From contig JABDCE010000006.1 in the NCBI GenBank assembly GCA_013288285.1, positions 1 through 55,147 on the forward strand: a DNA stretch of 55,147 nt. The letters run 5' to 3'. The notes beneath the pieces are model-generated. The model saw only the letters and a program-made list of their open reading frames with translations. It ran no database searches and was not told the DNA's origin. How positions within the stretch are numbered: position 1 is the stretch's first letter; each line of letters opens with the position of its first letter. This document shows positions 1,470 to 47,162 of the stretch, piece after piece. This DNA is from Bacteroidota bacterium. GTDB lineage: Bacteria; Bacteroidota; Bacteroidia; Chitinophagales; Chitinophagaceae. A program made the translations under genes and the position numbers.

Positions 1470-3461
1470 CTACTCTACCCCATGCGTCAGCCGCTCCACA
1501 AAATACATATCTAACTCACCCTTATTTTTTGCTTTTACTTTGCCCCGATGAATGCAGTTGAACTTATTTTTCACCATCTGGTAAGTGCTGCCTGATATGT
1601 TTATCTTACCTACCTCGCCGCTGCTCTCCATTCTTGCCGCCTGGTTCACGGTATCGCCCCAAATATCGTACGCAAATTTCTTGATGCCAACTATCCCAGC
1701 CACTACAGACCCCGAATGTATACCCACTCTCGCTTCAAACGCTATCTCACCCACTGCCTCCTTCTCTTTTTTGCGTCTTGCTATATAATCCTGTATCTCA
1801 AAGGCTGCATTCACCATATCCGCAGCATGAGTGTAAGTGATCACCGGCAGCCCCGACACACACATATAAGAGTCGCCTATGGTCTTTATCTTTTCTACGT
1901 TGTATTTCTCTATGATGTTGTCAAACTCACTGAAATAGCGGTCTATCTCGGCTACCAGCAGTTCTGCGCTCACCTGCTCGCTGATAAGCGTAAAGCTTTT
2001 AAAATCTACGAACATCACCGTTACCATGGCATAACTGCGCGCTGCGGTATGCCCTTTCTCTTTCAGCTCCTCGGCCACTTCCGCTGGCAATATATTCAGC
2101 AGCAGCATATCCGATTTCTTCAGCAGGTCTTCCGTTTGATGTAACAGTTTGTCGGTTTTCCTTTTTTCTATATTCAGCTCCTGGGTACGCTCCTCTACCT
2201 TCTGTTCCAGCAGCAGGTTCTGCTCTACCACTAATCGCTCGTTATCCTTTTGCTGTTTCTGCCGTTTCTTTCTCAGCACCCGCACATAATCTACCATACC
2301 ATAAAACAGCACCAGTATAGACACCAGCGCACCCACCGGCCCCACCATCCTCAGGCTCGCCGGCAATAGCTCCACGGTCACCAGCGCAAAAATGCAGTAC
2401 CCATAATCCAGCCATACATAAGATATCATCGCAAACGCCGCAGACCGGTCATTCTTTTTCAGCCATAGATACATGAGTATGCCGGTCATCACAAAAATGA
2501 TCAGCTCTGGCAGCAGCAAGCTCAGCATATTAGCGGTCTTCCATGGCAGGAAGAACGAAGAAACTACTGGAAACAGACCGGTTGATAGTACTACACCCCA
2601 GTACAGCTTGTGCAATGACCGGTGAGTACGCAGGTCGGCAACCATAGTCGCCGTAGAGGCCGTACCGAAAATAAAGAACGGGAACAGGAAAAAATTAGGA
2701 TACCTGCTCAGGAAATACCACGGATAGTCGCCCCAGAACAACGACGCCATCACCCCGAAATTATCCAGGTAGTAGAGTACGTGGCACAATGTGGCTAACA
2801 TCAGTATCAGGTAGTTTTTGTTCACGGAATAGATGAACGTGATGAGCCAGTAAAAGATGGCCAGCAGGCAGATCCCCCCATAAAACATAAAGAAATCATG
2901 CACTTTGCGCTCACGGGTATACCACGTATCTGCCGGTACTATCGCACACTTAATATTGTTCACCTCCGACCATCGCAGGCTCGTATGCACTTGCAGGTAC
3001 ACCACCACGCTCTGCTGTGCCGCCAGCGACAGGCTAAAGATCACATCAGGTCCCGGCACGCTGCGTTTGGCGGGAGCTACCGCCCACCCGCTGTTCTGTA
3101 TCACCACCTTCCCGTCGGGATAAACAATATAACAATTGACATCCGAATACAGTTTTTCGGTCTCTAATATCCACGAGGTGATCTTACCCGTATCCGAGGT
3201 GATCTTTATTTTCGCCCAGTAATAAATGTCGTTCGTCCCTTTGCCGGGGGCTATCGTATTTTCTTTAAACAGCGAATCAAAATGACCCGATGCCACCTGC
3301 GCAAACGAATACTGTCCTTCCAGTATCCGCATATCAGGCGTTATATCCGTTTGTTCTGCCGCATCTGGCTTTACCAGGTATGGAGGTGGACTTATTTTTG
3401 CTGCCGGTACAGCAAGGGGAATAAAAAAGTATATAAAGAATAGTAGAAAAGATCTCTTCAC
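1470..3461 (-). CDS. Membrane adenylate cyclase with 7TMR-DISM sensor and class III catalytic domain
   Basis: A 663-residue protein with a signal peptide, an extracytoplasmic beta-rich sensor (about residues 25-180, of the 7TMR-DISMED2 type), roughly seven membrane helices (about 190-395), a charged coiled coil (about 400-470) and a class III nucleotide cyclase domain (about 478-655). The catalytic domain has both metal aspartates (in FVDF near 484 and GDSYM near 528). The adenine-selecting Lys is in EKIKTIGD and the Asp in YDIWGD, and the transition-state Asn and Arg are in VNQAAR. These residues predict conversion of ATP to cAMP rather than GTP to cGMP. The coiled coil probably transmits a periplasmic signal to the cyclase dimer. 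The gene converges with the ORF ending at 1466. No cAMP effector is visible nearby, and the ligand is unknown. Confidence 0.9.
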   Translation of the reverse strand: MKRSFLLFFIYFFIPLAVPAAKISPPPYLVKPDAAEQTDITPDMRILEGQYSFAQVASGHFDSLFKENTIAPGKGTNDIYYWAKIKITSDTGKITSWILETEKLYSDVNCYIVYPDGKVVIQNSGWAVAPAKRSVPGPDVIFSLSLAAQQSVVVYLQVHTSLRWSEVNNIKCAIVPADTWYTRERKVHDFFMFYGGICLLAIFYWLITFIYSVNKNYLILMLATLCHVLYYLDNFGVMASLFWGDYPWYFLSRYPNFFLFPFFIFGTASTATMVADLRTHRSLHKLYWGVVLSTGLFPVVSSFFLPWKTANMLSLLLPELIIFVMTGILMYLWLKKNDRSAAFAMISYVWLDYGYCIFALVTVELLPASLRMVGPVGALVSILVLFYGMVDYVRVLRKKRQKQQKDNERLVVEQNLLLEQKVEERTQELNIEKRKTDKLLHQTEDLLKKSDMLLLNILPAEVAEELKEKGHTAARSYAMVTVMFVDFKSFTLISEQVSAELLVAEIDRYFSEFDNIIEKYNVEKIKTIGDSYMCVSGLPVITYTHAADMVNAAFEIQDYIARRKKEKEAVGEIAFEARVGIHSGSVVAGIVGIKKFAYDIWGDTVNQAARMESSGEVGKINISGSTYQMVKNKFNCIHRGKVKAKNKGELDMYFVERLTHGVE

Positions 3462-4271: not shown

Positions 4272-7200
4272 ATGCGTTTCAGTATCGTCATAATTTTTAT
4301 TCTGCTGTGTCTCGCTTCCGGCGCTTCCGCCCAGTTGCACGACAACGACTACCGCAATTCCGCCAACGAATATTACTGGGCAAACCGCATGCCTGACAAA
4401 GACTACTGGCAGCAGGATGTGCAATACAAGATACGCGCTACCATGCACGAAGAAGACAACCGCATCGATGGCACTGAAGAACTCACCTACTGGAACAACT
4501 CCCCCGACACCCTCCGTTATGTATACTTCCACCTCTACCAGAACGCCTTCGTAAAAGGCTCCCACCTACATGAACTGGAACACGCCAATAAAGTAAAAAC
4601 CGTAATGGGCAAAAAAGAAGCGGCAGGCCTCGGCATCGTATCGGAAGACATCCGTGTCGATGGACAAACCGCAAAGACAGAGCTGGACAATACCATCATA
4701 AAAGTGTTTCTCCCCACCCCGTTAAAGCCGGGCGGTAAGATCGTTATCAAAATGAACTTCAGCACCTGGTACGACAATGGCCTCACCCGCCGCCGTATGC
4801 AGATGTATGATGCCTGGGGCTTTAAGCACTACAACGGCACACAGTGGTTTCCCAAGCTCAGCGTGTACGACCGCATGCACGGCTGGGATACCTACCAGCA
4901 CCTCAACAAAGAATTTTATGGCGACTACGGTATCTACGACGTTACGCTCGACTTCCCCTCCAACTACATACTCGAAGCTACCGGCATACTGCAAAACAAA
5001 ACCGAGATGCTGCCCGATACCCTTCGCGCAAAACTGGACATTAAGAACTTCGCCGCCAAAAAATGGAACGAACCACCCTCTACCATCATTCCTTATGTAA
5101 AGGGCGAACGCAAGGCATGGCACTACATAGGCAATAACGTACACGACTTCGCTTTCACCGCCGATCCCTCTTTCCGTATCGGTACCGCTTACTGGAATGG
5201 TAATGAATGCGTAGCTATAGTGCAGGAACCACATGCCGCAGGGTGGCAGAATGCCACCGACTATATGACCAAAATTATCAAGACCTTCTCCGAAGACATC
5301 GGCATGTACCGCTACCCCAAGATAGTAGCCGCCGATGCGCAGGATGGTATGGAATACCCCATGATCACCCTCGATGGCGGCTCTGAGCCCGGCTATCGCG
5401 GCCTGTTCACACACGAGATAGGTCATAACTGGTTCTACGGCCAGGTAGGCAGTAACGAGACCTACCGTGCTGCTATGGACGAAGGGTTCACACAGTTCCT
5501 CACCTCATGGGGCCTGCGTCGCATAGATGGCGACAACATGGTAGTCGGCAAACCCAAATCTAAATACAGGCGGCATTTCGCAGAGCCGCAAAATGTACTC
5601 GACCGCAACGTCCTCAACCGCTACACTTTTGATGCCCTCAACCAGAACGAGATCGCCATCAACACACATTCCGATGATTTCAACAATGCCCTGAATCACG
5701 GCGGCGGCTATGGCCTCGTTTATTACAAGACCGCATCTATGCTCTACAACCTCCAGTACACCCTTGGCGACTCCCTCTTCCAGGCTGCCCTGCACCATTA
5801 TTTCGAGCAGTGGAAATTCGCTCATCCTTATTTCGAGGACTTCAGGGCTTCGGTCATCCAGTTCACGCACGTAGACCTGTCCTGGTTCTTTGATGAGTGG
5901 TTCGAGACCGTAAAGACACTCGATTACAGCATTGGTGGCATTCACCACATCAGCGGGGCAGATAGCTTTGCCATTAAGTTCCGCAGGCCCGGCGCTATGC
6001 AGATGCCGCTCGACTTTACCATCAAAGCAAAAGACGGCAGCACATACAGCTACTACATACCGAATACCTGGTTCCAGAAACAGACCACTGCTACTACCCT
6101 CCCCAAATGGTACGGCTGGGGCAAGCTCCACTCCGACTATACCGCGCACGTAAAGGTTCCCTCGGGCATAAGGAGTGTGCAGATAGACACCACCTACCGG
6201 CTTGCAGATGTAGACATGGTAGACAACTACAAAACCAAGTGCATGCCGGTAAGCATGAATGCCATAAAAACCATGCTCGATGGGGGCCTCACCCCGCAGT
6301 GGGACCGCCGCCAATACCGCCTCTATATCCGCCCTGACGTCTGGTGGAACCCCATAGATGGTATCAAGGCAGGTGTGCACTTCGAGGGCGACTACTTATT
6401 CAGCCTCTACAAGATCGACGCTACCGTATGGTGGAACACTCATGCCCTGCAGGAGACCGCCTATGAGTCCTTCGCAGGCCAAAGCACCTACGCGCACTAC
6501 CAGCCGGTCAATTATTCCATCAACTACAATTCCCCCATTGTGCGCAGCATGCCTAAGTTGCAGCTACAGCTCAACAGCCGCTACATAGATGGTGGCTGGT
6601 ATCAGCGTGGCGGGTTCAACTGGCTGCTCAGTGACCACAATACCGCGCAGGTATACGCGCAAAGCATGTGGCGCAAGAACAGCTATGCCGAAAGCTACCT
6701 CGCAGATCCCGGTGACTGGAACAGCACCTGGGCACGGCCAAACACATCGCTCAACTTCGCATGGGCACACACGTACAACTATATGCAGGGCACAGGCAAG
6801 TACACCTTCAGTTTCCGCGCACCATTCCTCGAAGGCAATACTGCGCCCGACAATTATTCTTATGCCCAGCTCGAATCTATCAACTCCACTACCGTGGGCA
6901 AGCTGGAAGTGCGCACACGTCTCTTTGGCCGCTATGGCACGGGCACACGGCTGCCTTACGAGAGCCTCCTCTACATGGCCGGCGCCAGCCCCGAGGAAGA
7001 AATGGAAAATAAATACACCCGAAGCATAGGCACCACTCCTACCGATTGGGATGGTATCTCGTCATACAACACCAACCATTTTCAGCAGGGCGGCGGCCTC
7101 GATCTCCGTGGCTATGCCGGTTACTTTGCACCAGATGACCACAACGGCCAGCAGATGGAGGGCTACAAGGGCCGCAGCGGTGCAGCGGCCAATGCCGAGA

Positions 7201-7532
7201 TCGGTTTCGAGAACTACATGCCATGGCATCCACGCTTTTTCAATAAGTGGCTCCATGCCGCCGTATATGGCTTTGGCGATGCAGGCGTTATGCAGCTCAG
7301 CTATTTTGCCACCAACAATATTTCCACCATTGTCCCATCCAATGTATGGAGTACCCTGCATGCCGATGCCGGCTTAGGCTTTGCCTTTACCATCAAGAAC
7401 TGGGGCGTGTTCGAAAAAGCCAAGCCGCTCACCATTCGTCTCGATTTACCGGTCTTCCTCAACCGCCCGCCGTATAGCAATGACCAGTACGCTACACTCC
7501 GGTATGTGGTAGGGATCAACCGTGCGTTTTGA
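4272..7532 (+). CDS. M1-family zinc metallopeptidase fused to a C-terminal Omp85-like outer-membrane beta-barrel
   Basis: A 1086-residue protein with a signal peptide ending at SASAQ (about residue 23). Residues 30-560 form an M1 gluzincin peptidase: GMEYP at 359-363, the zinc motif HEIGH at 381-385, and the third ligand Glu at 404 in DEGF. A beta-sandwich region follows to about 640. From about 645 to the end the sequence alternates aromatic and polar residues as in amphipathic strands. It contains LRGY (Arg946-Gly-Tyr) in the context GGGLDLRGYAGY, like the L6 RGY/RGF signature of Omp85/D15 barrels, and ends in NRAF with a terminal Phe as outer-membrane barrels do. The reading is a peptidase tethered to, or exported through, its own barrel, comparable in plan to patatin-like type Vd proteins. 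No POTRA domain is evident. The peptidase part is certain; the barrel is a strong inference. Confidence 0.88.
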   Translation: MRFSIVIIFILLCLASGASAQLHDNDYRNSANEYYWANRMPDKDYWQQDVQYKIRATMHEEDNRIDGTEELTYWNNSPDTLRYVYFHLYQNAFVKGSHLHELEHANKVKTVMGKKEAAGLGIVSEDIRVDGQTAKTELDNTIIKVFLPTPLKPGGKIVIKMNFSTWYDNGLTRRRMQMYDAWGFKHYNGTQWFPKLSVYDRMHGWDTYQHLNKEFYGDYGIYDVTLDFPSNYILEATGILQNKTEMLPDTLRAKLDIKNFAAKKWNEPPSTIIPYVKGERKAWHYIGNNVHDFAFTADPSFRIGTAYWNGNECVAIVQEPHAAGWQNATDYMTKIIKTFSEDIGMYRYPKIVAADAQDGMEYPMITLDGGSEPGYRGLFTHEIGHNWFYGQVGSNETYRAAMDEGFTQFLTSWGLRRIDGDNMVVGKPKSKYRRHFAEPQNVLDRNVLNRYTFDALNQNEIAINTHSDDFNNALNHGGGYGLVYYKTASMLYNLQYTLGDSLFQAALHHYFEQWKFAHPYFEDFRASVIQFTHVDLSWFFDEWFETVKTLDYSIGGIHHISGADSFAIKFRRPGAMQMPLDFTIKAKDGSTYSYYIPNTWFQKQTTATTLPKWYGWGKLHSDYTAHVKVPSGIRSVQIDTTYRLADVDMVDNYKTKCMPVSMNAIKTMLDGGLTPQWDRRQYRLYIRPDVWWNPIDGIKAGVHFEGDYLFSLYKIDATVWWNTHALQETAYESFAGQSTYAHYQPVNYSINYNSPIVRSMPKLQLQLNSRYIDGGWYQRGGFNWLLSDHNTAQVYAQSMWRKNSYAESYLADPGDWNSTWARPNTSLNFAWAHTYNYMQGTGKYTFSFRAPFLEGNTAPDNYSYAQLESINSTTVGKLEVRTRLFGRYGTGTRLPYESLLYMAGASPEEEMENKYTRSIGTTPTDWDGISSYNTNHFQQGGGLDLRGYAGYFAPDDHNGQQMEGYKGRSGAAANAEIGFENYMPWHPRFFNKWLHAAVYGFGDAGVMQLSYFATNNISTIVPSNVWSTLHADAGLGFAFTIKNWGVFEKAKPLTIRLDLPVFLNRPPYSNDQYATLRYVVGINRAF

Positions 7533-9482: not shown

Positions 9483-9526
9483 TAAATTTGAAAATGTAGC
9501 ACGATTTTTGATGTATCTCTGTTATG
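9471..9526 (+). repeat. Direct repeat, copy 1 (5' flank of lipoprotein 1)
   Basis: This segment, covering the last bases of the membrane-protein gene, its stop codon and the leader of the first lipoprotein, recurs almost base for base at 10383-10439. It marks the 5' border of the tandem gene duplication. Confidence 0.85.
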
Positions 9527-10333
9527 CCCAGAAAACTACTCCTATATACCTTCCTCATACTTCTTGTCTGCATAGCAAGTTGTAAGAAAAAGAGTACCCC
9601 GGCACCAACCACCACCATTACCCATCACACATCCTCCAAAATGAACGGCAACTGGATGTGGCAGGGAACATATGACTACTATGCCAACACATTTAAGGAT
9701 GTCTTTATTCAATTCCCCGTGGTTGTTATCAATGACACTACTGTAGTTGCTAACTACGATACACTGATTTGGAATCAAAGCCGAGGTTGCTTCTACCGCT
9801 CGCTTGGCTATGGTTACAATGGCCTAGAGGATAATGAACACCTTTATTATAACATCAACAACGATTCGATGAGTTATGGGCTGCAGATGTATAGCTATAA
9901 GAGTCAATTACTATCTGTATATGCAGGCTGGTACATACCCAATCCTTCTCTTAAAAATTATCTGCCGGGTATTGTGGGCACACAGGTATTATCCGGTAAG
10001 GATTCCGTCGTTTTAGACGGTAACAGTACAAATGCTTTTGACAGCACTTATACGACCACTACCCTTATCAACTTTTGGACAGCTAACGATTCTACCATCA
10101 TATTCGACAAAACTTTCTTAGCCACTCCCGACAGTGCATTACACTACAGGTGTACCGATTTAGTTGCCAGGACGATAATTTTTCAGAGCTTTCACCAGGA
10201 GGATCCGGAAGCTTCTTTTTGTTTATCAACACTCATATATCACTATGATACAAAACAAATATTTTTCAGTCAACAAGGTCATTTTGTTGATAGTAACATA
10301 TTGCACACGTTCAAGGTAACCTATACTAATTAA
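9524..10333 (+). CDS. Lipoprotein of unknown function, tandem paralogue 1
   Basis: A 269-residue protein with a lipoprotein signal: a hydrophobic leader, lipobox CIASC with the acylated Cys at about residue 20, then KKKS. The mature part is rich in Asn, Asp, Thr and Tyr and looks like a beta-structured envelope protein. Segments shared with the next gene include NGNWMW, YAGWYIPNP, LKNYL, and NDST near the C-terminal third. The paralogue lies 103 bases downstream with the same leader, showing a recent tandem duplication. No known domain was recognised. The flavour of the sequence (short domain around NGNWMW after a lipobox) recalls lipocalin-like or META-like envelope lipoproteins of Bacteroidota, but this is only an impression. 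Confidence 0.75.
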   Translation: MPRKLLLYTFLILLVCIASCKKKSTPAPTTTITHHTSSKMNGNWMWQGTYDYYANTFKDVFIQFPVVVINDTTVVANYDTLIWNQSRGCFYRSLGYGYNGLEDNEHLYYNINNDSMSYGLQMYSYKSQLLSVYAGWYIPNPSLKNYLPGIVGTQVLSGKDSVVLDGNSTNAFDSTYTTTTLINFWTANDSTIIFDKTFLATPDSALHYRCTDLVARTIIFQSFHQEDPEASFCLSTLIYHYDTKQIFFSQQGHFVDSNILHTFKVTYTN

Positions 10334-10382: not shown

Positions 10383-10439
10383 ACCAAATTATTAGTGAAT
10401 TTGAAAATGTAGCACGATTTTTGATGTATCTCTGTTATG
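10383..10439 (+). repeat. Direct repeat, copy 2 (5' flank of lipoprotein 2)
   Basis: Near-identical to 9471-9526: one inserted base and one A-to-G change near its start, then a long identical run through the leader to the ATG. It includes a copy of the 3' end of the upstream membrane-protein gene, so the duplication carried the gene together with its leader. Confidence 0.85.
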
Positions 10440-11201
10440 CAAAGAAAACTACTCCTATACACCCTCCTCATTCTGCTTGCCTGCACAGCTGCTTGTAAGA
10501 AAAAGAGCAATGCCGTCTCACATACATCTCCCAAAATAAATGGCAACTGGATGTGGCTGGGAAAATCTTACTATTTCGATGTTCCATCGCCTCCCGATGT
10601 TTTCATGCAGTTTTCTGTGGCCGGTATAAGCAACAACACTGTAATCGTCTTCGGGAATGATACGCTAACCTGGTCGTCGCAAGAAAATGCTTTCTACCGT
10701 AATCTTGATCCAACTAGCACCAGTATCAATGAGGAGTTATTGTCTTACAACACTACCAACGACTCTATGACTTATTTTGCTCAGGGAAACTCATCCTCTG
10801 GCGGTGCTAAATTATCTTTATATGCAGGCTGGTACATACCCAATCCTATGCTGAAGAACTATCTCTCAGATATTGTCGGCACCAAGGTATTTACTGGCAC
10901 AGGCGATAATTGGTTTGTAATTCGCCAGCCACAGGATAGCACCTATACCGTCACCGCCACCTTTACTTTTTCGGCAGTTAACGACTCTACCATTACATTC
11001 GACAATGACTTTCTAAACATTGGGGACGGCACGTTACATTACAAGTCCACCGATGCCGTGGCGAAGACGGTTACCTTCCAAAATTTTCATACTTATTATT
11101 ACCGGCTATCAACACTTACCTACAACTACGAAACAAAACAGTTAATTTTCGATCAGCACTATGTAGATATAGGTATACACAACGAGGTAGTTTTCAAATA
11201 G
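10437..11201 (+). CDS. Lipoprotein of unknown function, tandem paralogue 2
   Basis: A 254-residue protein, paralogous to the preceding gene. The first 20 residues are almost the same (RKLLLYT at the N-terminus, lipobox ACTAAC, then KKKS), NGNWMW follows at about residue 39, and YAGWYIPNP and LKNYLSDIVGTKV align in the middle. The rest has diverged, with most change around residues 55-110 and in the C-terminal quarter. The conserved leader and diverged body suggest duplication followed by change of the surface-facing part. It is the last gene before the repeat-rich AT-rich islet. No enzymatic motif was seen. Confidence 0.75.
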   Translation: MQRKLLLYTLLILLACTAACKKKSNAVSHTSPKINGNWMWLGKSYYFDVPSPPDVFMQFSVAGISNNTVIVFGNDTLTWSSQENAFYRNLDPTSTSINEELLSYNTTNDSMTYFAQGNSSSGGAKLSLYAGWYIPNPMLKNYLSDIVGTKVFTGTGDNWFVIRQPQDSTYTVTATFTFSAVNDSTITFDNDFLNIGDGTLHYKSTDAVAKTVTFQNFHTYYYRLSTLTYNYETKQLIFDQHYVDIGIHNEVVFK

Positions 11202-35646: not shown

Positions 35647-38600
35647 TTACTTCTCGATCACTACCTGAAGGGTCTTGTAGATATTTTCAGAGCGGATGTG
35701 TAGTAAGTAATTACCCGCGGCGAAGTTATCTCCGAGTTCAACATGAGCCTCAATGTTTCCATTGTCGGTCTTAATTTTACTCGTATAAATTACCTGCCCT
35801 ACCATATCTGTAATTTCTATGGTTACTTCCTCATCAGTTGCAGTACCTGAATAACCGCTGATCATAAATCCTCCCTTACTTGGGTTAGGTGAAATAAGCA
35901 CCGAGGACAAGTTAGTTAGCGAACCTACGCCATCAGTAGTGACATTCATATATACCCTGTTCGTTGCGGACAGGCCACATAACCCACTGCCGGTGACCAT
36001 ACAACTTATAGAATCGAAATTAGCTATGCTGTTTGTTGTATACGTTGAAAAGGTCTCTCCGGCAACCGCAAGACCGTTTTTCATCCATTGATATGCCGGT
36101 GTGATGCCGCCATTGACAACCAAAGCTGTAAAAGTAACAGGCTGGCCTTTTTCTACCACGGTACCCGGATCAGCAGAAATCGTTACCAATGGAACGACCG
36201 GTGTAACGACCGACATGGTCACGTATGCATAAGCAGTCACGGGATCTGCACAGGTGGCATTGCTGGTCATCGCTGCTACAACCACATCCTCATCAAGCGG
36301 GGAATAGTTATAAGAAGTACCGGTGCTGCTGGCCGGTACACCATTTACCACCCACTCGTATTTAGGTAGTGTACCGCCGTTTACAGGGGCGACTGTGAAA
36401 GTAACAGGAGTACCTGCACAAACGGTATCGCCGGTCGGGGCCACCATAATTAATGATGGCGTGACGATCGGATTAGCGATCACTGGTACGAAAGAATACA
36501 TATTATTACTGCAACCGGTAACAGTATCCCTGGCAACAATGCCGTAAACACCAGGAACAGTAATTGGCCCATAGTCCAATAAACCACCAAAACCAGCAAT
36601 ACTATCAGCATAATAACTTCCGTTATAAAGCAAGTATTTAGTGCCTGTCACAGAACTGCTTAAGAAAATATGAACACCTGTATCGCCTGCACAATAACTG
36701 CCTCCGCCCGTGACACTATATACAGATGGAAGCGGCAGCACAGTGACCGTAGTATTTACCGAGCAGCTTGTGCCAATCGAATAAGTGATCATCGTAATTC
36801 CTGCTGCCACCCCCATAACACTTCCTGTAACCGGATCTATCGTTGCTGTGCCGGTATGTGCAGACGTCCAGAGGCCGCCGGATACAGCATCACTTAACGG
36901 CGTACTGCTCCCGGCGCAAATGTTTGTAATGCCTGTGATCGCAGATGGTATCGGGCGAACAGACATTGTATCTGTTGCGCTACAGCCTGTTGGTAAACTA
37001 TAGCTAACCACTGCTGTTCCTGTTGTGAGGCTGGTAACCAATCCTGTAAACGCGTCAACCGAAATTGACGGATCAATACTGTTCCACAGGCCACCCGATG
37101 TAGAGTCGCTGAGTGCACTAACCGATCCAATACACAGTATGTTCTGCCCTATGATCTTTGCAGGTACAGGATCCACTGTCAGTGATACGGTAGTGAAACA
37201 ACCGGTAGGAAGTGTATAGGTAATTATTCCCATGCCGGTCTTATATGCTGTTGCCAGCCCTACAGGTGTGATGGTAACCAATGTGCTTGTCCATATACCG
37301 CGTGGCGCATCTGCATCAGCCACCAGCATGGTTGCTCCGCCGCCGCACATATCTTTCGCGCCTGTAATTGGTGACACAGCAAGGTTCACTGTCACGGTCT
37401 CAGTGACCATACAGCCAGAGCCATGATCGTAAGTAATAATCGTAGACCCGACCAATAGGCCGGAAACCACACCTGTAACCGGATCTATGGTAGCAACAGC
37501 AGAATTGCTGCTGGCCCATGAACCACCGGCCGGCACATCGCTTAATCCGGTAGTGGAACCAGTGCAAAGAACCGGTGAACCAAATATTCCCGCAGGAAAC
37601 GGATCTATAGTAACTACAGCCGCAACCGTGCAGCCCGTAAGAGATGTATAGGTAATAGATGAAGTGCCTGCCGAAACACCGGTAAGAACGCCGGTGCCGG
37701 ACCCGATAGCGGCTACTCCGATATTGCTGCTGACCCAAGTGCCTCCACTGTAAACAGCGGACAAAAGAACAACCGAACCCGCACAGACATAGGGGATACC
37801 TGTTATAGGAGCAGTGGGATTAACAATTACCGGCGCGGTAATGATGCAACCGGTTGTGATTAATGTATAGGTGATATTAGCTACGCCGCCCGAGTTACCC
37901 GAAACTAATCCTGACCCCAGGCCAATAGCAGCTATAGCTGAGTTGGAAGACGACCAGGAACCGCTCAATGTAGCATCGCTTAAAATTGTTGATGCGCCCT
38001 GGCAAACTGTCATGGTACCGGTTATTGCCAGCGGAAGTGGATTCACTGTAACAGTACCAGTGCCGATACAACCGGTAACAAGTGTATAAGTGATCACGGC
38101 AGTACCCACGGTAACCCCTGTAACAACGCCTGCGCCACTCAATGTCACTGTGGCGACAGATGTATTGCTGCTGCTCCAGGTACCGCCTCCTGCATCGCTT
38201 AAAGTGGTCGTGAGGCCTGAGCAAACAGCCATAGTACCAGTCATGGACGATGGAAGCGAATTAACAGTTACTGTAGCAGTAATAGCACAACCCGTGGGTA
38301 TGGTATAAACTATAATAGCTGTACCGGGCGAAACTCCAGTAATAACAGCAGATACCGAACCAACAGTGGCTACTGAACTATTCAGGCTACTCCATGTTCC
38401 ACCGATTGTAGCATCACTCAAAGATGTGGTCAATCCGGCGCAAACATTCACCGTTCCAAGTATAGGCAACGGCAACGGATTTACAGTCACCGGGGTAGTA
38501 GCTATACAGCCTACCGCAGACGTATATGTTATCGTTGCGGTGCCTGACGAAACACCGGAATAAACTCCGGTACCAAGGCCAATAGTAGCATAGGATGTAT

Positions 38601-40572
38601 TGCTGCTGCTCCAGGTACCGCCAGCCACATCGCTCAGCACTGCCGTCGTTCCGGGACAAACGTTCATAGTCCCGGTTATGCCCGGTGGCAAAGGGTTTAC
38701 GGTGACATTAGCTGTGGTCGTACACCCTGTGCCTATGGTATAAGTAATGGTAGTGGTACCGGGTATTAAACCCGAAACCACCCCTGTGATGGGGTCAACT
38801 GTCGCAACCGATGTATTGCTACTGGTCCAGCCACCGCCACCGCCTTCTATCAATGATGTCTGTCCGCCCACGCAGGCATTCCAACTTCCGCCTATAACCG
38901 GTGGCAGGAGGTTTACCGTTACGGTAATGATCGTAGGGCAACCGGCGGCTGTAGTATATGTAATAACGGAAGTACCTGAAGAAACACCTAAATAAATACC
39001 TGAAGTAGAACCGATAGTGGCAACCGAGGTAGTATTACTGCTCCATGTTCCAGTAGGCGTTGCGTCACTTAACGCACCGGTCAATCCCACACAAACAGCG
39101 CTGCCGCCGGTAATACCTGCCGGCAAAGCGTTAACTGTCATCGCAAAGGTGCTTGTACAGCCTGTGGCAAGTGTATAGGTTATTGTCGTTGTACCTGCTA
39201 AAATACCGGTAACAATACTTGTACCGGAACTGAACGTTGCTACAGATGAATTCCCACTGGACCATGTACCTCCCAGTGTAGGATCACTCAACAATGTAGG
39301 AAAACCAGTGCATATATTTGCAGGAGCTACGATGCCCAAAGGCAAAGGGTATACCGTAACAACTGTGGTAGCAACACAGCCGGTTGTAAGCGCGTACGAG
39401 ATAGTAGAGGTGCCTGCAGAAACGCCGGTAACAATGCCTCCGGAAACAGTTGCAATTGTGGTAGATCCACTACTCCATGAGCCTCCTGTTGTCAGATCGC
39501 TCAGGTTTGTTGTAAGCCCGGTGCATACAGTCAGCGCTCCGGAGATGGTCGCCGGCGTAGGGTTTACAGTTACTATAGTTGAAATTGCACAACCTGTACC
39601 CAGAGTATAAGTAATAACAGCAGTACCTGTGGACACACTGGAAACTAATCCCGTACCGAGGCCAACTGTAGCAACCGATGAATTACTGCTAAGCCACGTA
39701 CCAGAGCCGGCATCGCTTAAAGTGCTTGTTAAGCCTAAGCAGATATTTGTGTTACCAGAAATCGAAGATGGTAAGGGATTGACTGTTACAATTGTAGTGG
39801 CAGTACACCCTGCCCCGGTAGAATAGGTGATCACCGATGTGCCTGCAGCAACACCCGCAACGGATCCCCCAACACCAACAGTGGCAACAGAAGTATTACT
39901 GCTGCTCCATGTGCCGCCCGTGGTAGCATCTGTTAAAGCTGTAGATGACCCTTTGCACAAACTGCCGGTTCCTGTGATCGCCAGCGGCGGCGTGCAGGAT
40001 ACGGTAACATTACCCAAAACGTTAAATGTGTTCACCTGGAAAGTACCCGAGCTGCTGCTGGGAATATATGGAAACAATGCAACGATGATACCATTCACGG
40101 TACTGGTGATACCTGTTGGCAATGTTCCGCCGCTCCAGTTAGACACTGCTGTTGTTCCGCAACCGGAATTAATAGGCGCATGGCATGCCAGGTCATCGAT
40201 CCAGGTAACTCCATTATCAAGACTATATGCAAACCTTACACAAGCAGGACCAGTACCTGACCTTCTCATCCCTGCATTGATTCCTGTAACGTTTAACTGG
40301 TACCCCGCGAGCGGCTTCATTTGAATGTACACACGTGGCCCGGCAGTACTATATGTAGACCACGTAGTGCTTACAGTAATACCACTTAACCCACCACTGG
40401 AACAGGGCGTATTGCTACCAAAACCAGAATTCAGTAACGAGGTAACTGTCTCATTTGCCACGCCTGTGACTGTAGTGCCACCACCACCGGCCCCGGCATA
40501 GGTAGCCAGTTGTCCGAAGCTGCTTACAGTAACAATAAATAATAGTGCTACCAGGGTAATTAGTTTTTTCAT
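35647..40572 (-). CDS. Giant secreted Ig-like repeat protein with T9SS sorting domain (1641 residues)
   Basis: The signal peptide ends near SFGQ (residue 21). An N-terminal beta domain (about 22-195) contains RRSGTGPA and YSLDNGVTW, also seen in the next gene. Residues 199-1284 are 15 tandem units of about 72 residues, each with the pattern ItG..vC.G.tt.LSD..gGtWsSsNtsvAtv...tGvvtGvs.GTa.ITYtl.tGC...VTVnplP. This is a BIG2-type Ig-like fold with one Cys near each end. Further PKD/Ig-like modules (about 1285-1560, with PxYQWxxNG) precede the sorting domain (SPNPSKGGF onward to VVIEK, 1565-1641). It is predicted to be exported by the T9SS and displayed as an adhesin or matrix protein. No catalytic domain was seen. 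Confidence 0.92.
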   Translation of the reverse strand: MKKLITLVALLFIVTVSSFGQLATYAGAGGGGTTVTGVANETVTSLLNSGFGSNTPCSSGGLSGITVSTTWSTYSTAGPRVYIQMKPLAGYQLNVTGINAGMRRSGTGPACVRFAYSLDNGVTWIDDLACHAPINSGCGTTAVSNWSGGTLPTGITSTVNGIIVALFPYIPSSSSGTFQVNTFNVLGNVTVSCTPPLAITGTGSLCKGSSTALTDATTGGTWSSSNTSVATVGVGGSVAGVAAGTSVITYSTGAGCTATTIVTVNPLPSSISGNTNICLGLTSTLSDAGSGTWLSSNSSVATVGLGTGLVSSVSTGTAVITYTLGTGCAISTIVTVNPTPATISGALTVCTGLTTNLSDLTTGGSWSSGSTTIATVSGGIVTGVSAGTSTISYALTTGCVATTVVTVYPLPLGIVAPANICTGFPTLLSDPTLGGTWSSGNSSVATFSSGTSIVTGILAGTTTITYTLATGCTSTFAMTVNALPAGITGGSAVCVGLTGALSDATPTGTWSSNTTSVATIGSTSGIYLGVSSGTSVITYTTAAGCPTIITVTVNLLPPVIGGSWNACVGGQTSLIEGGGGGWTSSNTSVATVDPITGVVSGLIPGTTTITYTIGTGCTTTANVTVNPLPPGITGTMNVCPGTTAVLSDVAGGTWSSSNTSYATIGLGTGVYSGVSSGTATITYTSAVGCIATTPVTVNPLPLPILGTVNVCAGLTTSLSDATIGGTWSSLNSSVATVGSVSAVITGVSPGTAIIVYTIPTGCAITATVTVNSLPSSMTGTMAVCSGLTTTLSDAGGGTWSSSNTSVATVTLSGAGVVTGVTVGTAVITYTLVTGCIGTGTVTVNPLPLAITGTMTVCQGASTILSDATLSGSWSSSNSAIAAIGLGSGLVSGNSGGVANITYTLITTGCIITAPVIVNPTAPITGIPYVCAGSVVLLSAVYSGGTWVSSNIGVAAIGSGTGVLTGVSAGTSSITYTSLTGCTVAAVVTIDPFPAGIFGSPVLCTGSTTGLSDVPAGGSWASSNSAVATIDPVTGVVSGLLVGSTIITYDHGSGCMVTETVTVNLAVSPITGAKDMCGGGATMLVADADAPRGIWTSTLVTITPVGLATAYKTGMGIITYTLPTGCFTTVSLTVDPVPAKIIGQNILCIGSVSALSDSTSGGLWNSIDPSISVDAFTGLVTSLTTGTAVVSYSLPTGCSATDTMSVRPIPSAITGITNICAGSSTPLSDAVSGGLWTSAHTGTATIDPVTGSVMGVAAGITMITYSIGTSCSVNTTVTVLPLPSVYSVTGGGSYCAGDTGVHIFLSSSVTGTKYLLYNGSYYADSIAGFGGLLDYGPITVPGVYGIVARDTVTGCSNNMYSFVPVIANPIVTPSLIMVAPTGDTVCAGTPVTFTVAPVNGGTLPKYEWVVNGVPASSTGTSYNYSPLDEDVVVAAMTSNATCADPVTAYAYVTMSVVTPVVPLVTISADPGTVVEKGQPVTFTALVVNGGITPAYQWMKNGLAVAGETFSTYTTNSIANFDSISCMVTGSGLCGLSATNRVYMNVTTDGVGSLTNLSSVLISPNPSKGGFMISGYSGTATDEEVTIEITDMVGQVIYTSKIKTDNGNIEAHVELGDNFAAGNYLLHIRSENIYKTLQVVIEK
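36721..39978 (-). repeat. 15 tandem coding repeats of about 216 bases (1641-residue protein)
   Basis: 3258 bases encode 1086 residues, or 15 units averaging 72.4 residues. The units are diverged at the DNA level, with short conserved islands such as those encoding TWSSSNTSVAT and ITYT. This also explains the long antisense open frames on the plus strand. Confidence 0.88.
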
Positions 40573-40856: not shown

Positions 40857-43800
40857 CTACTGCTCAATGACAATATGAAATACTTTGCTTGCAACCCCGG
40901 AGCGGACGTTCAATATATACTGGCCGCTTGCTATTGTGTTACTCAATTTTACATGTTCATTAATTTGGCCACTAACTGCGACTATAACATTTTTGTATAC
41001 TGCCTGGCCGATCATGTCCGTAATTTCAATCGAAACCTGCTCATCATTGGTAATGCCAAGCGAGCCTTTCACGGTGAATGTACCTTTGCTTGGGTTAGGC
41101 GAAACTGCAATGTTATCAATAATGGCAACTGGCCGGATACCAACATTGCTGACACCTATGATTATTGAATTAGATGATGACAAACCGCAGACATCAGTAT
41201 TCGTCACAACACAGGTAACTGAATCATTATTGGAAAGTGTATCGCTTACAAAAGTAGCTGAAGTTGCTCCTGGCAATACTACGCCATTGATCAGCCATTG
41301 ATAGGTGTGCGCTACGGTGGTTGTTACGGCCGCAGTGAATGTATCGCTCTCACCGGTATAGGTGTGTATGCCTTGCAGTGAATTCATAGCGAATACCGGG
41401 GTTGTAGCCGGAACAACAACAACCGTAGTATCTGTGCTGAACACTGAATCTGCCAGGTTACACTGTATATTGCTCACCATCATACAATGAATGATATCTC
41501 CATTAGACGGTATATATGTATATGTAGGGCCTGTAGCAACATTGATACTGTTTTGTGTCCATCTGAAAGTAGGTGCTGTTCCGCCGAATACCGGGATAGC
41601 TGAAAACATGGCAGGTGATCCCTGGCATACAGGATCTCCTGGGGTGATCGAAAAGCTTACAGAAGGTGTTACATTCGGTAGCACTACTATTACGGCTGAA
41701 TCACTTGCGGTATCAGGTACGGCGCAAACAGCATTGCTGGTCAGCATTGCGCTTACTATATCTCCATTGGCTGGTGTATAGCTATAAAAATTGGCCGTAG
41801 TTCCGACAACACTACCATTTACTTCCCATTGATAGACAGGAACGGAACCACCGTTTACCGGAGTAGCAACAAACGTGAGGATCGTTCCGACACATATTGT
41901 ATCCGTCGTTCCGCTGGAAATACCAACTGAAGGAATAAGTACTGAATTCACAGTAGCAGTACTGGTAGTAAGGCATCCCGTCGGCAATGTATAAGTGATG
42001 CTAGATGTTCCCCCGGCAATACCTGTCACAATACCTGTACCTGACCCTACATTCGCCACCAATGTATTACTGCTGGTCCATACGCCACCACCTGCATCAC
42101 TCAATGTAGAAGTAAATCCGATACATACACCTGTAGTCCCAGTTATTGCTGATGGTAAAGGATTAACAGTCGCTGTTGTTATTGCCACACAATTCAATGG
42201 CGAGGTATAAGTAATAATGGGATTTCCGGTTGATATACCGGTAACAACACCACCGCCCGGCGTCACCGTTGCAAGTGTCGTATTACTGCTACTCCAGGTA
42301 CCGCCTGTAGTTAAGTCACTCAGGCTTGTTGTCAAACCTGCGCATACAGTACCCAGGCCTATGATAGATAATGGCAATGGATTAACTGTTACGGTTTGAG
42401 TCGTCTCACAGCCGGTAGCCAGTATGTACGTTATTGTAGCAGTGCTGGCCGTAATACCGTTTACTACACCGGTAACTAAGTCAACTGTCGCTACGCTGGT
42501 ATTACTGCTTGTCCATGTACCGCCGCCGCCGTCACTGAGTGTCGTTGCATCACTGATACAAACGCTGGTCGATCCCAGTATAGCTGTTGGCAGTGGGTTA
42601 ACGGTTACCGCTGTATTGGCAGTACAACCTGTGGAAAGTGTATAGGTTATAGACGCTGTACCAGCAGATACGCCCCCAACAGCACCCGTACCAGGGCTGG
42701 CAATAGCTACTGAAGTGTTGCTACTGGTCCATGTACCACCGCCAGCATCAGTTAATGTGGTTGTCAAACCTACACAAACTGTCGCGACACCCGTTATAGA
42801 CAATGGTAGTGGATTAACAGTCTCAGTTTTCGTGATCAGGCAACCAGTGCCTAAGGTATAAGTAATAACCGCAGTTCCCGAAGAAACACCAGTTGCGACA
42901 CCTGTACCTAACACGATAGTTGCAACAGATGTATTATTGCTGGTCCATGTACCGCCGCCTGCGTCCGAAAGTGTGATATTAGATGCAACGCAAATATTTG
43001 AACCACCTGAAATTCCTGATGGTAACGGGTTTACTGTTACGGCATCCGTAGTAATACAGCCAGTAGCTAATTTATAAGTTATAGTCGCCGTACCCTGGGT
43101 TACACCCGCCACAGTACCCGATGCAACTATCGCCACACCGGTATTGCTGCTGCTCCATGCACCACCGCCAACATCACTCAATGTAGTTGACAAACCAACG
43201 CATACAGAGGAGACCCCGGTAATTCCGGAAGGTAATGGATTCACTGTAACTGTTGTGGCCGCAGTACACCCTGTACCTAACGTATATGTAATGACCGAAG
43301 TACCAAATGATACACCCGAAACAACGCCTGTTCCGGTTACTACGGTTGCTGCCGTAGTAATACTGCTGCTCCATGTGCCGCCACCGGCGTCACTGAGATT
43401 TGTTGTTGCGCCAACACATACAGTAGCAATACCTGTTATTGAAGAAGGTAGTGTATTCACCGTAACCGGGGTAGTTGCAGTACAACCATTGGATAAAGTA
43501 TAAGTAATGACGGAGGTTCCCCCAAATATACCGGAAGTCACGCCTGTTCCCAAAACAACTGTGGCAACAGAAGTATTGCTGCTGCTCCATGTACCGCCTC
43601 CAGCATCGCTGAGGGCCGTTGTAGATCCAACACATACATGAAATGTACCTGTAACGTTTGAAGGAGATAAGTTAACTGTGACAGGAACACTTGTGGTACA
43701 ACCTGTGGCCAGGCTATAAGTAATAGTAGCTGTGCCCGGCAATACACCGGTAACGACTCCGGTAGAAGGATCAACAATAGCAACAGAGGTATTGCTACTA

Positions 43801-46800
43801 CTCCACGCACCACCACCTGCGTCACTCAACGCTGTAGTGGCGCCTGTACAAACTGTGGTCATACCGGTAATAGACAGCGGCAACAGGTCTACTGTTACTG
43901 TTGTTTCGGCTGAACATCCCGTAAGAAATGAGTAAGTAATTGAGGTTGTACCACCCGATAAGCCAGTTACCACACCAGTGATCGCATTAACTGCTCCAAC
44001 CGTTGTATTACTGCTCGACCAGTTACCACCGCCAGCATCACTCAGCGATGTGGTAGATCCCACACAAACATTCGTAATACCTGTAATTGCTACAGGTGAT
44101 GGATTAACCGTCACAGAAGTAGTTGCTGTACATCCGGTCGATAAAGAATAACTAACGGTGGCTGTCCCGCCAGATAGACCTGTAACAACACCGCTGCCCG
44201 AGCCAATGCTCAATGATGTGCTTGAACTACTCCATGTTCCTGATGAAGTGCCATCGGTCAATGAAATTGTAGAACCTGCGCAAACTGTAGACGCTCCGGT
44301 AATGCCTAATGGCGTAAGATTTACAGTAACTACCGCAGTTGCGTTACAACCGGTGGATAATGTATAAGATATTGTTGCTGTACCAGCAGACACGCCTGAA
44401 ACGATACCCGTAACTATGTCCACGGTGGCATTAGCTGTGCTGCTACTGCTCCATGATCCGCCGCCGGCATCACTTAATGCAGTAGTCAGACCACCGCACA
44501 CAGTCATTGTTCCGGAGATTGCCGATGGTGTTGTGTTCACGGTTACTGCGGCAAATGCGGTACAGCCTGCTGGCAACGTATAAGTTATTGTTGCGGTTCC
44601 CTGCAGAATACCGTTTACATCACCAGAAGCAGGCACAACGGTGACTGTAGGATCCAGACTGGTCCATGTACCACCGGATATTGCGTCACTGAGATTTATC
44701 GTTGACCCAACGCAAACATTACTCAGGCCCGCAATCGTCACAGGAGTTGGATTGACGGTAACCGGAGAACTTGCGCTGCAACCGGTTGATAAAACATAAG
44801 AGATAGTTGCCGTACCAGCCGTGACACCTGTGACAATTCCTGTAATTGGGTTCACCATAGCATTAGTAGTACTGCTGCTGCTCCATGCGCCGCCGCCACC
44901 ATCGCTCAATGCGGTCGTAAGCCCTTCACAAACTGAGGTGGTACCAGTAATACCCGGTGGCGTTGTATTTACCGTAATTGTGGTAAATGCTGTACAACCT
45001 GTAGACAAAGTATAAGTGATGGCCGAAGTGCCAGCTAAAATACCGGTTGCAATACCTGAACTGCTACCGATAGTGGCCACAGCAGTATTACTTGAAGTCC
45101 ATGTTCCCCCAGAAACTATGTCGCTCAGGCCTGTAGTGAGACCAACACATAAAGTAGGTACACCTGAGATAGCTGATACAGGATTAACAGTAGTTGTGAT
45201 GATTGCTGAACTTGAACAGGCTCCATTCGTTGCAGTAGCCGTATAAGTAACAACAGCTGCAGCAAGCGGGTTCAGATATACCGTGTCGGTAGCGGTGCTG
45301 GTGTAGCCTATCGTTCCTACTGAATTAGTATACAACTGGCTGGCTGGCGACCAGGTCACCGCTATAGGAGCCGAGTAATTTAACGCAATGCTGCCTGAAA
45401 TGAATGTCGAAACATCAGCAAATGTTGAGCTGTTATAGGCTATAATCGACCAGGTGCCATTAGGAACAGTAAATAATGCCGGCCATGATGTAGTATTAGA
45501 CAAGAAGCCTGCAGGGCCTACAGCACTTGCTGCATCTGCTGCAAAGGTTGCTGTGTATGGAGTAGTCCCTGTGGACAATGCAGTTGATGAAGACGAACTG
45601 ATAACTGTATTGGTAAAGCTACCTGCGCCTGAAGGCAGCGCCTGGTTGACAAGGTTAATGATCTTTCCGTTGGGGGCTACCAGGTTAAATATGTAATCAT
45701 GTACAAAACTGGAGGAGAAATTAAGAGTTACCGATGCACTTGTAATTGCTGCTCCTGAAGGGATGCCACTGATCACAAAACTATCGGGGACATTATCAAG
45801 AGGAGTATTTACCGGGAAATTAACTGTACCCGATGAGGCAAATGTAGGCCCTACAGCCCCACCAGCAGCGTAGATCATGCCTGGTGCAGAGCCCTGGCAG
45901 GTGGTTAAGGTAGTAGGCGTAATGGCTACAGATGCTGGAGACGGAGTGGCCGTAACTGTTGCAGTATTTGATGCAGAGCAGCCTGTTGAGGCCGTACCTG
46001 TAACAGTATAAGTAATATTGCTGCCGGGGTTTGCCGTAATGGTAGCACCTGTGGTAGCAGATAAGCCAGTTACCGGAGACCATATATACGTTGACGCACC
46101 AGATGCGGTCATGCTTAATCCCGTACCACCGGAACAAACATTGCCGCCTGACGGGGTAACACTGACGGTAGGAAGAGTATTATATGTAACTGTTCCCGTA
46201 GAAGATATATTAGATAAACTGGAGGCAGCACACGTAGTGGTGCACCAATAATAGGTAGTGGACGTAATAGGAGGAGTTGCATAGCTGGAGCTTGTAGCAC
46301 CGGAAATGCTCGTACCCGGCGGTGTTGGCGATGCAGAAGATGACCACTGATAACTAAGGCCGGTGCCTGTAGCGCCTCCGGTAAGTGTCAATGCGGAGGC
46401 TCCGCTTCCGCAAATTGTGGTTGGTATCGGCGAAACCGAGCCAGCCGTAGGGGTACCAGAACAAGGAGTAGAAACATTCACGGTCCCGGTTACTTGGAGA
46501 CCTGATGAACTAAAAATATACCAGGTACCTGAAGTAGACGTACCTCCCCAATTCACAATGCGAAAATAGACGGTAGTAGTCGCGGGTACATTCTGCAATG
46601 CAAGAACCCCAGTGAGGTCTACGCTGGGAGTGAGTAATGCGCCGGTACTTGTTGTATTGGTATATGCAAAGGCACCACCGGTTACATCGAAATAGGTAAT
46701 GCCATCAGTAGAATACTGGAGCTGTCCGTTTGATGGGCCTGTGCCGGACCTCCTGTAAAACAAAGACAATCCTGAGAAACTCGCCATATAACCGGAATTT

Positions 46801-47162
46801 GCTTTGGCTGTAAATGATGCATACTCATTGATCGAGATCGCATTAGCCTCACTCGTTCCCTGCCAGTTGGTGCCGCCCCAGGCACTACCAGCAGCGGTAC
46901 CCGTAGTGCTCACTCCGCTCCCTCTGGTCAAACCACCAATAGTAACATTCGCGGCTGCGGTAGTAGGTGTCCACGGCGATGGGCCGAAAGTGCTCAGTGC
47001 CGTGGGGCTACTTGGGTTCCATGCAGCGATGGTGATCTGTGCACTTGTCTTCACCGAACAAAAATGCAACGCAATAAACAGACAAACACTGGCAAATTGT
47101 TTGGCAATAACGACTCTTTTACTAACAAATGAATTGATCGTGTTTACAGATAAATTTTTCAT
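40857..47162 (-). CDS. Giant secreted Ig-like repeat protein with P-domain and T9SS sorting domain (2101 residues)
   Basis: The signal region ends near SAQ (residue 42). The N-terminal jelly-roll-like domain (about 43-225) contains YRRSGTGPS and YSTDGITYF. PKD/Ig-like modules follow (about 230-420). A region at about 424-600 resembles the proprotein-convertase P-domain (FVISGIPSGAAITSASVTL, DYIFNLVAPNG, then SIIAYNSS). Residues 665-1744 are 15 units of 72 residues of the same BIG2-like, two-Cys family as in the neighbouring gene. Further YQWxxNG modules lead to the sorting domain (SPNPSKGTF onward to HIVIEQ, about 2020-2101). The last 80 residues are close to those of the 1641-residue protein, so the two are paralogues. 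It is predicted to be surface-displayed by the T9SS. Confidence 0.92.
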   Translation of the reverse strand: MKNLSVNTINSFVSKRVVIAKQFASVCLFIALHFCSVKTSAQITIAAWNPSSPTALSTFGPSPWTPTTAAANVTIGGLTRGSGVSTTGTAAGSAWGGTNWQGTSEANAISINEYASFTAKANSGYMASFSGLSLFYRRSGTGPSNGQLQYSTDGITYFDVTGGAFAYTNTTSTGALLTPSVDLTGVLALQNVPATTTVYFRIVNWGGTSTSGTWYIFSSSGLQVTGTVNVSTPCSGTPTAGSVSPIPTTICGSGASALTLTGGATGTGLSYQWSSSASPTPPGTSISGATSSSYATPPITSTTYYWCTTTCAASSLSNISSTGTVTYNTLPTVSVTPSGGNVCSGGTGLSMTASGASTYIWSPVTGLSATTGATITANPGSNITYTVTGTASTGCSASNTATVTATPSPASVAITPTTLTTCQGSAPGMIYAAGGAVGPTFASSGTVNFPVNTPLDNVPDSFVISGIPSGAAITSASVTLNFSSSFVHDYIFNLVAPNGKIINLVNQALPSGAGSFTNTVISSSSSTALSTGTTPYTATFAADAASAVGPAGFLSNTTSWPALFTVPNGTWSIIAYNSSTFADVSTFISGSIALNYSAPIAVTWSPASQLYTNSVGTIGYTSTATDTVYLNPLAAAVVTYTATATNGACSSSAIITTTVNPVSAISGVPTLCVGLTTGLSDIVSGGTWTSSNTAVATIGSSSGIATGILAGTSAITYTLSTGCTAFTTITVNTTPPGITGTTSVCEGLTTALSDGGGGAWSSSSTTNAMVNPITGIVTGVTAGTATISYVLSTGCSASSPVTVNPTPVTIAGLSNVCVGSTINLSDAISGGTWTSLDPTVTVVPASGDVNGILQGTATITYTLPAGCTAFAAVTVNTTPSAISGTMTVCGGLTTALSDAGGGSWSSSSTANATVDIVTGIVSGVSAGTATISYTLSTGCNATAVVTVNLTPLGITGASTVCAGSTISLTDGTSSGTWSSSSTSLSIGSGSGVVTGLSGGTATVSYSLSTGCTATTSVTVNPSPVAITGITNVCVGSTTSLSDAGGGNWSSSNTTVGAVNAITGVVTGLSGGTTSITYSFLTGCSAETTVTVDLLPLSITGMTTVCTGATTALSDAGGGAWSSSNTSVAIVDPSTGVVTGVLPGTATITYSLATGCTTSVPVTVNLSPSNVTGTFHVCVGSTTALSDAGGGTWSSSNTSVATVVLGTGVTSGIFGGTSVITYTLSNGCTATTPVTVNTLPSSITGIATVCVGATTNLSDAGGGTWSSSITTAATVVTGTGVVSGVSFGTSVITYTLGTGCTAATTVTVNPLPSGITGVSSVCVGLSTTLSDVGGGAWSSSNTGVAIVASGTVAGVTQGTATITYKLATGCITTDAVTVNPLPSGISGGSNICVASNITLSDAGGGTWTSNNTSVATIVLGTGVATGVSSGTAVITYTLGTGCLITKTETVNPLPLSITGVATVCVGLTTTLTDAGGGTWTSSNTSVAIASPGTGAVGGVSAGTASITYTLSTGCTANTAVTVNPLPTAILGSTSVCISDATTLSDGGGGTWTSSNTSVATVDLVTGVVNGITASTATITYILATGCETTQTVTVNPLPLSIIGLGTVCAGLTTSLSDLTTGGTWSSSNTTLATVTPGGGVVTGISTGNPIITYTSPLNCVAITTATVNPLPSAITGTTGVCIGFTSTLSDAGGGVWTSSNTLVANVGSGTGIVTGIAGGTSSITYTLPTGCLTTSTATVNSVLIPSVGISSGTTDTICVGTILTFVATPVNGGSVPVYQWEVNGSVVGTTANFYSYTPANGDIVSAMLTSNAVCAVPDTASDSAVIVVLPNVTPSVSFSITPGDPVCQGSPAMFSAIPVFGGTAPTFRWTQNSINVATGPTYTYIPSNGDIIHCMMVSNIQCNLADSVFSTDTTVVVVPATTPVFAMNSLQGIHTYTGESDTFTAAVTTTVAHTYQWLINGVVLPGATSATFVSDTLSNNDSVTCVVTNTDVCGLSSSNSIIIGVSNVGIRPVAIIDNIAVSPNPSKGTFTVKGSLGITNDEQVSIEITDMIGQAVYKNVIVAVSGQINEHVKLSNTIASGQYILNVRSGVASKVFHIVIEQ
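41931..45170 (-). repeat. 15 tandem coding repeats of about 216 bases (2101-residue protein)
   Basis: 3240 bases encode 1080 residues, 15 units averaging exactly 72. Unit 10 is two residues shorter around the central loop. Most units keep both Cys positions. Confidence 0.88.

Follow-up and report, generated by a model that had tools for sequence, protein, structure and literature searches.

What does a zinc metallopeptidase do when it is built into the same polypeptide as a probable outer-membrane barrel: does it leave the cell through that barrel, or is it held in place by it? This question is raised by a gene at positions 4272-7532 of a 55,147-nucleotide stretch of DNA (contig JABDCE010000006.1 of assembly GCA_013288285.1; hereafter the window) from a member of the Chitinophagaceae, in the Bacteroidota, whose source assembly is 57.7% complete. 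The gene starts with ATG, is uninterrupted, and encodes a protein of 1086 amino acids, termed P0001, in which an M1 peptidase module is followed by a domain that we call Omp85-related. An earlier note, made from the letters of this stretch, had proposed that the protein places or exports its peptidase by its own barrel. We find the fusion to be genuine and conserved, with a barrel that none of the libraries searched recognises. The reading that we favour, and to which we give a probability of about 0.6, is that P0001 would be an outer-membrane-anchored, periplasm-facing M1 aminopeptidase, in which the enzyme stands at the position usually held by the POTRA domains.

The peptidase module and the spread of the fusion

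The N-terminal module carries a zinc site of the form HEXXH(18)E, and the Pfam family Peptidase_M1 matches it at E=7.5e-12 over residues 379-543. Its conservation was followed in two alignments. The first comprises 37 sequences, the query included, with 5 of 41 loci excluded, as the gene is cut there; the second comprises 23 sequences from the genus, the family and the order, again with the query, 20 of them chosen from near-full-length matches, and all 23 have a Peptidase_M1 match in Pfam. In the first alignment, H381, E382, H385, E404, D358-Y362, Y484, K486, R946 and G947 are invariant (37/37), and the residue that follows RG is a Tyr or a Phe in all 37. In the second one, the zinc, DGMEY, Y484, K486 and R946 positions are likewise invariant (23/23), while G947 and Y948 are each found in 22/23. 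This invariance across both alignments places the motifs beyond chance, and the zinc site (HEIGH with Glu404), the RGY motif with Arg946 and the C-terminal Phe that the earlier note had picked out all stand. The DGMEY motif, which we take to be the counterpart of GxMEN, retains the Glu and has a Tyr in place of the Asn in every sequence of the two alignments, and Y484, in a VYYK motif, is presumably the catalytic Tyr. The M1 aminopeptidases LTA4H, ColAP and PepN, which are weak PDB profile matches, have in common with P0001 the HEXXH-E zinc site, the Glu of GxMEN and the Tyr; P0001 differs from them in having DGMEY for GxMEN, and a barrel where M1 aminopeptidases have a helical C-terminal domain.

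The end of this module is given by M1 proteins that carry no barrel. Among the matches listed, 23 are of this kind (frames of 613-698 amino acids); they align to the query from residues 35-45 to residues 649-656 with 31-35% identity, and the match stops at these same residues in the 12 that were retrieved. Since barrel-less M1s align up to this point, the third beta-domain is part of the peptidase, and the module reaches residue 652 or so. The relevant part of the strand-rich region, which the earlier note had begun after about residue 645, starts near residue 681. As the linker in between has about 28 residues and everything up to about residue 652 is common to the barrel-less M1s, no space is left for a POTRA domain, and a profile search at E<=10 found none in P0001, in agreement with what the earlier note had remarked.

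Of 34 same-genus genomes, 33 carry an ortholog (67-81% identity), which aligns over nearly its full length in 28, and the fusion cannot be put down to an assembly artefact. The closest named records come mostly from uncultured Bacteroidetes, and those with names include Flavipsychrobacter, Taibaiella and Chitinophagaceae; a cultured relative, Flavipsychrobacter stenotrophus RB1R16, has an ortholog (L063). In a phylum sample of 392 genomes, the window's own included, the barrel of the P0001 family is present in 69. Calling the two forms by frame length, 21 of these genomes carry a fused copy (frame of at least 990 amino acids) and 48 carry only frames of about 400-500 amino acids, and 6 of the 21 have both; many Bacteroidota have relatives of P0001. 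The M1 domain was confirmed in all 9 fused loci fetched, and no M1 was found in the 11 kb around the stand-alone barrel at any of 11 loci fetched (12 open reading frames, ORFs). The existence of stand-alone genes means that the barrel domain is autonomous. Those of loci L242-L252 encode 407-455 amino acids, and an acetate-kinase-like gene, judged by eye, adjoins the barrel in 3 of the 4 loci with genes listed.

The C-terminal domain and the Omp85 barrels

Sequence profiles link the C-terminal domain to Omp85 barrels, with a similarity above controls. The comparisons were made with hhalign, against sets whose names (BamA, TamL, short430, long1150, RGFDE, A, B, P and S) are ours and refer to motif, length or tree. 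A profile of the 23 aligned fusions matched two PF01103-positive sets from relatives (8 and 9 sequences) at E=6.8e-5 and 2.5e-4, with 0.14 for TonB receptors, 0.044 for PorP and 0.12-0.43 for DUF5686 as negative controls. A 44-row profile, made of these 23 fusions, 9 distant fusions and 12 stand-alone barrels, matched the BamA/TamL-type sets at E=1.9e-9 and 6.6e-8 and the other Omp85 sets at 1.6e-4 to 0.13, with 0.63 for TonB receptors, 0.036 for PorP, and 0.036 and 0.11 for DUF5686. The 9 distant fusions alone gave E=1e-7 and 1.1e-7 with two Omp85 sets (controls 0.044-0.38). Known Omp85 sets match one another at 9.9e-6 to 7.8e-4, and the BamA/TamL pair at 2.2e-96. The DUF5686 barrels, examined as possible nearer relatives, are ruled out by the values just given.

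A second family of M1 proteins, whose barrel is a different one, occurs in the genus, the family and the order (17 proteins with frames of 966-1098 amino acids, 3 of them from the genus). The profile of its barrel matches the first family at 8.3e-5, the TamL-type set at 7.6e-4 and the BamA-type set at 0.029 (controls 0.18-0.59), and it matches the 44-row profile at 1.8e-14. All eight real scores, from four profiles and two targets, lie above those of the reversed target and of all 20 block-shuffled targets, the narrowest margin being that of this second family with one Omp85 set (25.3 vs 23.7).

Strands were assigned by eye from the alignment, which gives 16 of them; the RGY loop joins strands 11 and 12, as the RGY-type loop of BamA does. 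In the 23 fusions, outer loops average 20.6 residues (mean standard deviation 1.93) and periplasmic turns 6.5 (0.34); in the 44 rows, these values are 19.4 (4.01) and 6.9 (1.54). In this 16-strand reading, the RGY motif falls in the sixth outer loop (L6), and by homology the N-terminus and the M1 domain would therefore be periplasmic. The barrel is most likely located in the outer membrane, and the M1 domain probably faces the periplasm, inward and not exported.

The residues that mark this loop and the FxD after it are strongly conserved. Indeed, R946, F1001 and D1003 are invariant in the 23 fusions and in the 12 stand-alone barrels, all 12 of which have the RGY, and the FxD that follows L6 is what we take to be the partner of the RGF Arg. 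The hhalign alignments pair VYGFGDAG with VFVDAG and FFLDIG; GGGLDLRGY is paired with GGTNSLRAF in the alignment with the TamL set, and the RGY loop is gapped in the other. P0001 is comparable to the BamA and TamL proteins of Bacteroidota in the C-terminal half of its barrel, and in having an L6 motif of the RGY/F/W type, an FxDxG and a C-terminal Phe, and it differs from them in carrying an M1 domain in place of the POTRAs described in the literature. For F. johnsoniae BamA, the motif LRGY is given in PMC12611786 (this paper, PMC4104836 and PMC11116518 are all cited from excerpts).

A number of results weigh against such a reading of the domain. No PF01103 or other Omp85 match was obtained in Pfam for P0001 (E<=10) or for any of the 23 fusions (E<=1), NCBIfam returned no barrel family for P0001 or its C-terminal part, and the stand-alone barrels matched no barrel family in Pfam (8 of 12 scanned) or NCBIfam (5 scanned). 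The earlier note had looked to a profile search for the Omp85 kinship: neither library supplies it, and only the profile-profile comparison does. In the window genome, at its 57.7% completeness, there are 0 matches to PF01103 at E<=0.01. PDB sequences gave nothing at E<=10 with barrel profile A3; the sole PDB match to the barrel part of P0001 alone was an antibody chain (E=0.078), and a search with profile A4 gave a single chance-like match (E=0.24). The 23-row profile scored 0.27, 0.022, 0.2 and 0.2 with four further PF01103-positive sets (6, 2, 2 and 1 sequences), and the E-values of the shuffled targets went down to 6.1e-4 and 9.2e-4, so that the 23-row result is marginal by itself. The stand-alone set matched PorP at E=1.3e-4, better than two Omp85 sets (0.0056-0.0071), a ranking that the 44-row profile did not repeat. 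The likeness to the Omp85 sets spans the C-terminal half of the barrel, and the 9 distant fusions keep the Arg of RGY in 4 cases and D1003 in 5. As for the strands, they were assigned with the topology in mind; L6, with its 78 residues, lifts the outer-loop mean, L1 and L3 resemble turns in being short and constant, and an automatic strand counter found 15-18 segments vs 14-19 in a PF01103-positive Omp85 set without separating barrels from the soluble M1 domain. According to the abstract of PMC11116518 an Omp85 protein has at least one POTRA, although the introduction of that paper says "usually". Since neither of two tests of membership, a Pfam match and a POTRA, gave a hit, we name the domain Omp85-related.

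What the M1 domain may do at the barrel

In the reading that we favour, P0001 would be exported by Sec, and its C-terminal domain would fold in the outer membrane as an Omp85-type barrel, presumably closed and with about 16 strands, in which homology predicts the RGY loop of L6 to pack into the lumen. The M1 domain, directly before the first strand, would be a zinc aminopeptidase anchored to the membrane and lying on its periplasmic side. Because the catalytic set is intact, this enzyme would most likely trim peptides at the inner face of the outer membrane, whether they come in or are generated there. That an enzyme ahead of such a barrel can be periplasmic is shown by PlpD (PMC11116518).

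The best-surviving alternative, which we nevertheless find rather improbable, is that the M1 domain mainly acts as a POTRA-like module that binds substrates for the barrel, be they outer-membrane proteins, lipids or peptides, and that catalysis is of lesser importance or can be dispensed with. The domain does stand at the POTRA position, and the second fusion family, which is found in 68 of the 392 phylum genomes, offers a precedent. In its groups f24 and f25 (two families of the class, with 50 of the 68 genomes), HEXXH and GxMEY are lost in 25/25 proteins examined (loci L262, L263, L266, L280-L299, L310 and L312), and the three zinc-less proteins that were aligned to the family profile all match it over the M1 part and the barrel, their Pfam M1 scores being under the cut-off. 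Outside these two groups, HEXXH is kept in 31/32 proteins, the exception being L304. In the family of P0001, however, all catalytic residues are invariant, and the barrel-less relatives keep HEXXH (14/14) and GGMEY (12/12), which argues against a dispensable active site.

Self-export, the proposal of the earlier note, is unlikely. In this view the M1 domain would be carried over the outer membrane by the barrel, to be displayed or released, as was first proposed for type Vd secretion, and two arguments favour it: the parts come in the order seen in PlpD, enzyme then barrel, and Omp85 relatives such as FhaC translocate proteins (PMC4104836). However, the Omp85 topology, through the parity of the strands, would set the N-terminus and with it the M1 domain in the periplasm, a zinc enzyme of about 610 residues would need passage through the barrel, and the patatin domain of PlpD, the archetype itself, was found to be periplasmic in 2024 (PMC11116518). 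PlpD, once called type Vd, resembles P0001 in having an N-terminal enzyme, probably periplasmic, and a C-terminal Omp85-type barrel on one chain. It differs in that the enzyme of P0001 is an M1 metallopeptidase, no POTRA was found in it, and its barrel is beyond the reach of the Omp85 models of Pfam; the patatin and POTRA that together define type Vd were not found by Pfam scans in P0001 or the fusions. Finally, that the C-terminal domain is not of the Omp85 kind, being either a soluble beta domain or an outer-membrane barrel of some other type, is very unlikely, for while the lack of a direct Pfam or PDB match and the PorP score of the stand-alone barrels speak for it, the profile scores above the shuffle controls, the conserved RGY Arg and FxD, and a strand pattern in which outer loops exceed turns in length and variability speak against it.

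The locus, its relatives and their history

Table 1. Positions in the window of the fusion gene and its parts.
Feature	Position	Strand	Basis
Entire M1 peptidase-barrel fusion gene, 1086 amino acids	4272..7532	+	ORF; same-genus orthologs
N-terminal hydrophobic signal-like segment, residues 1-20, GASA end then Q, without lipobox Cys	4272..4331	+	Sequence, by eye
M1 peptidase module including third beta-domain, residues ~44-652	4401..6227	+	Pfam; ends of barrel-less matches
DGMEY, residues 358-362, putative GxMEN counterpart	5343..5357	+	Invariant 37/37 and 23/23
HEIGH, residues 381-385, zinc ligands and catalytic Glu	5412..5426	+	Motif, alignments
E404, third zinc ligand	5481..5483	+	Alignments
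Y484 in VYYK motif, likely catalytic Tyr	5721..5723	+	Invariant 37/37 and 23/23
Putative linker, residues 653-680 (~28 residues)	6228..6311	+	Pfam; ends of barrel-less matches
Omp85-related barrel domain, residues 681-1086 (~405 residues), 16 strands by eye	6312..7529	+	Profile-profile comparison
GGGLDLRGY, residues 940-948, L6 motif including R946	7089..7115	+	Motif, alignments
FGDAG, residues 1001-1005, equivalent to the VFxDxG of BamA/TamL-type proteins	7272..7286	+	Profile alignment
C-terminal Phe 1086	7527..7529	+	Sequence, alignments

Most homologs have N-termini comparable, by eye, to that of P0001. No operon is evident, since the neighbouring genes are not conserved: among the ORFs of the window's first 20 kb, a single one has a relative in the neighbourhood of an ortholog, in 1/22 cases, and the neighbour that recurs most often among relatives does so in 6/22. 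Elsewhere in the window lie a 7TMR-DISM protein that carries an adenylate/guanylate cyclase domain (1470-3461, - strand), tandem lipoprotein-like genes that are alike by eye (9524-10333 and 10437-11201, + strand), the first without a Pfam match at E<=0.001, and two adjacent genes for giant repeat-rich proteins of 1641 and 2101 amino acids with C-termini alike by eye (35647-40572 and 40857-47162, - strand), which are probably surface proteins.

The earlier note had also remarked that M1 passengers on Omp85 barrels are not known as a described secretion type, and our literature search, among open-licence PMC papers, found no description of an M1 fusion to an Omp85 or outer-membrane barrel, nor did the excerpts of PMC4104836 contain one. 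This Omp85 survey (Heinz and Lithgow, 2014) distinguishes ten subfamilies, of which "Metallo" is defined by PF00149 and termed a metalloprotease (PMC4104836). Like P0001, its members have a metal-dependent hydrolase ahead of an Omp85 barrel; unlike P0001, they carry PF00149 and not M1. In Pfam, PF00149 is the calcineurin-like phosphoesterase family, and the "metalloprotease" label, as it appears in these excerpts, looks wrong. One protein of a same-genus genome (L317, 1490-5158) combines PF00149 and PF01103. Two further proteins (L315, 1187 amino acids, and L316, 1135 amino acids) have a PF01103 match in the genome search and no match of any kind in hmmscan at E<=0.01. A link to BamM, a subunit of the F. 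johnsoniae BAM, was ruled out, as BamM is a calcium-binding surface lipoprotein (PMC12611786).

The history of the architecture was approached with a careful tree of 45 M1 domains, which we selected from 98. In this tree, 14 barrel-less M1s (L210, L211, L268-L279) form one clade inside the fused family; a constraint uniting the 21 fused rows was rejected (approximately unbiased test, p 0.00094), and a quick 98-row tree was concordant, with long-branch warnings. When the root is assumed between the two fusion families, the barrel would be ancestral and lost once, and the nesting of the barrel-less M1s suggests such a loss. The M1-barrel architecture thus looks old in Bacteroidota. A bolder scenario, possible but doubtful, is that of an ancient Bacteroidota machine of the outer membrane in which the M1 domain replaced the POTRAs and substrates passed between the barrel and the peptidase-fold domain, the zinc-less module of two families being binding-only.

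If this scenario were true, the machine with M1 for POTRA would be a new Omp85 subfamily with a non-proteolytic role in envelope biogenesis or peptide uptake, and the relatives that have lost the zinc site make a non-cleaving role of the domain testable. At the least, a conserved peptidase-barrel protein without POTRA, with a barrel that Pfam and NCBIfam do not recognise, would add another enzyme-bearing kind to the Omp85 relatives, and it warns against a misreading: the presence of an enzyme ahead of an Omp85 barrel does not in itself make a secretion system.

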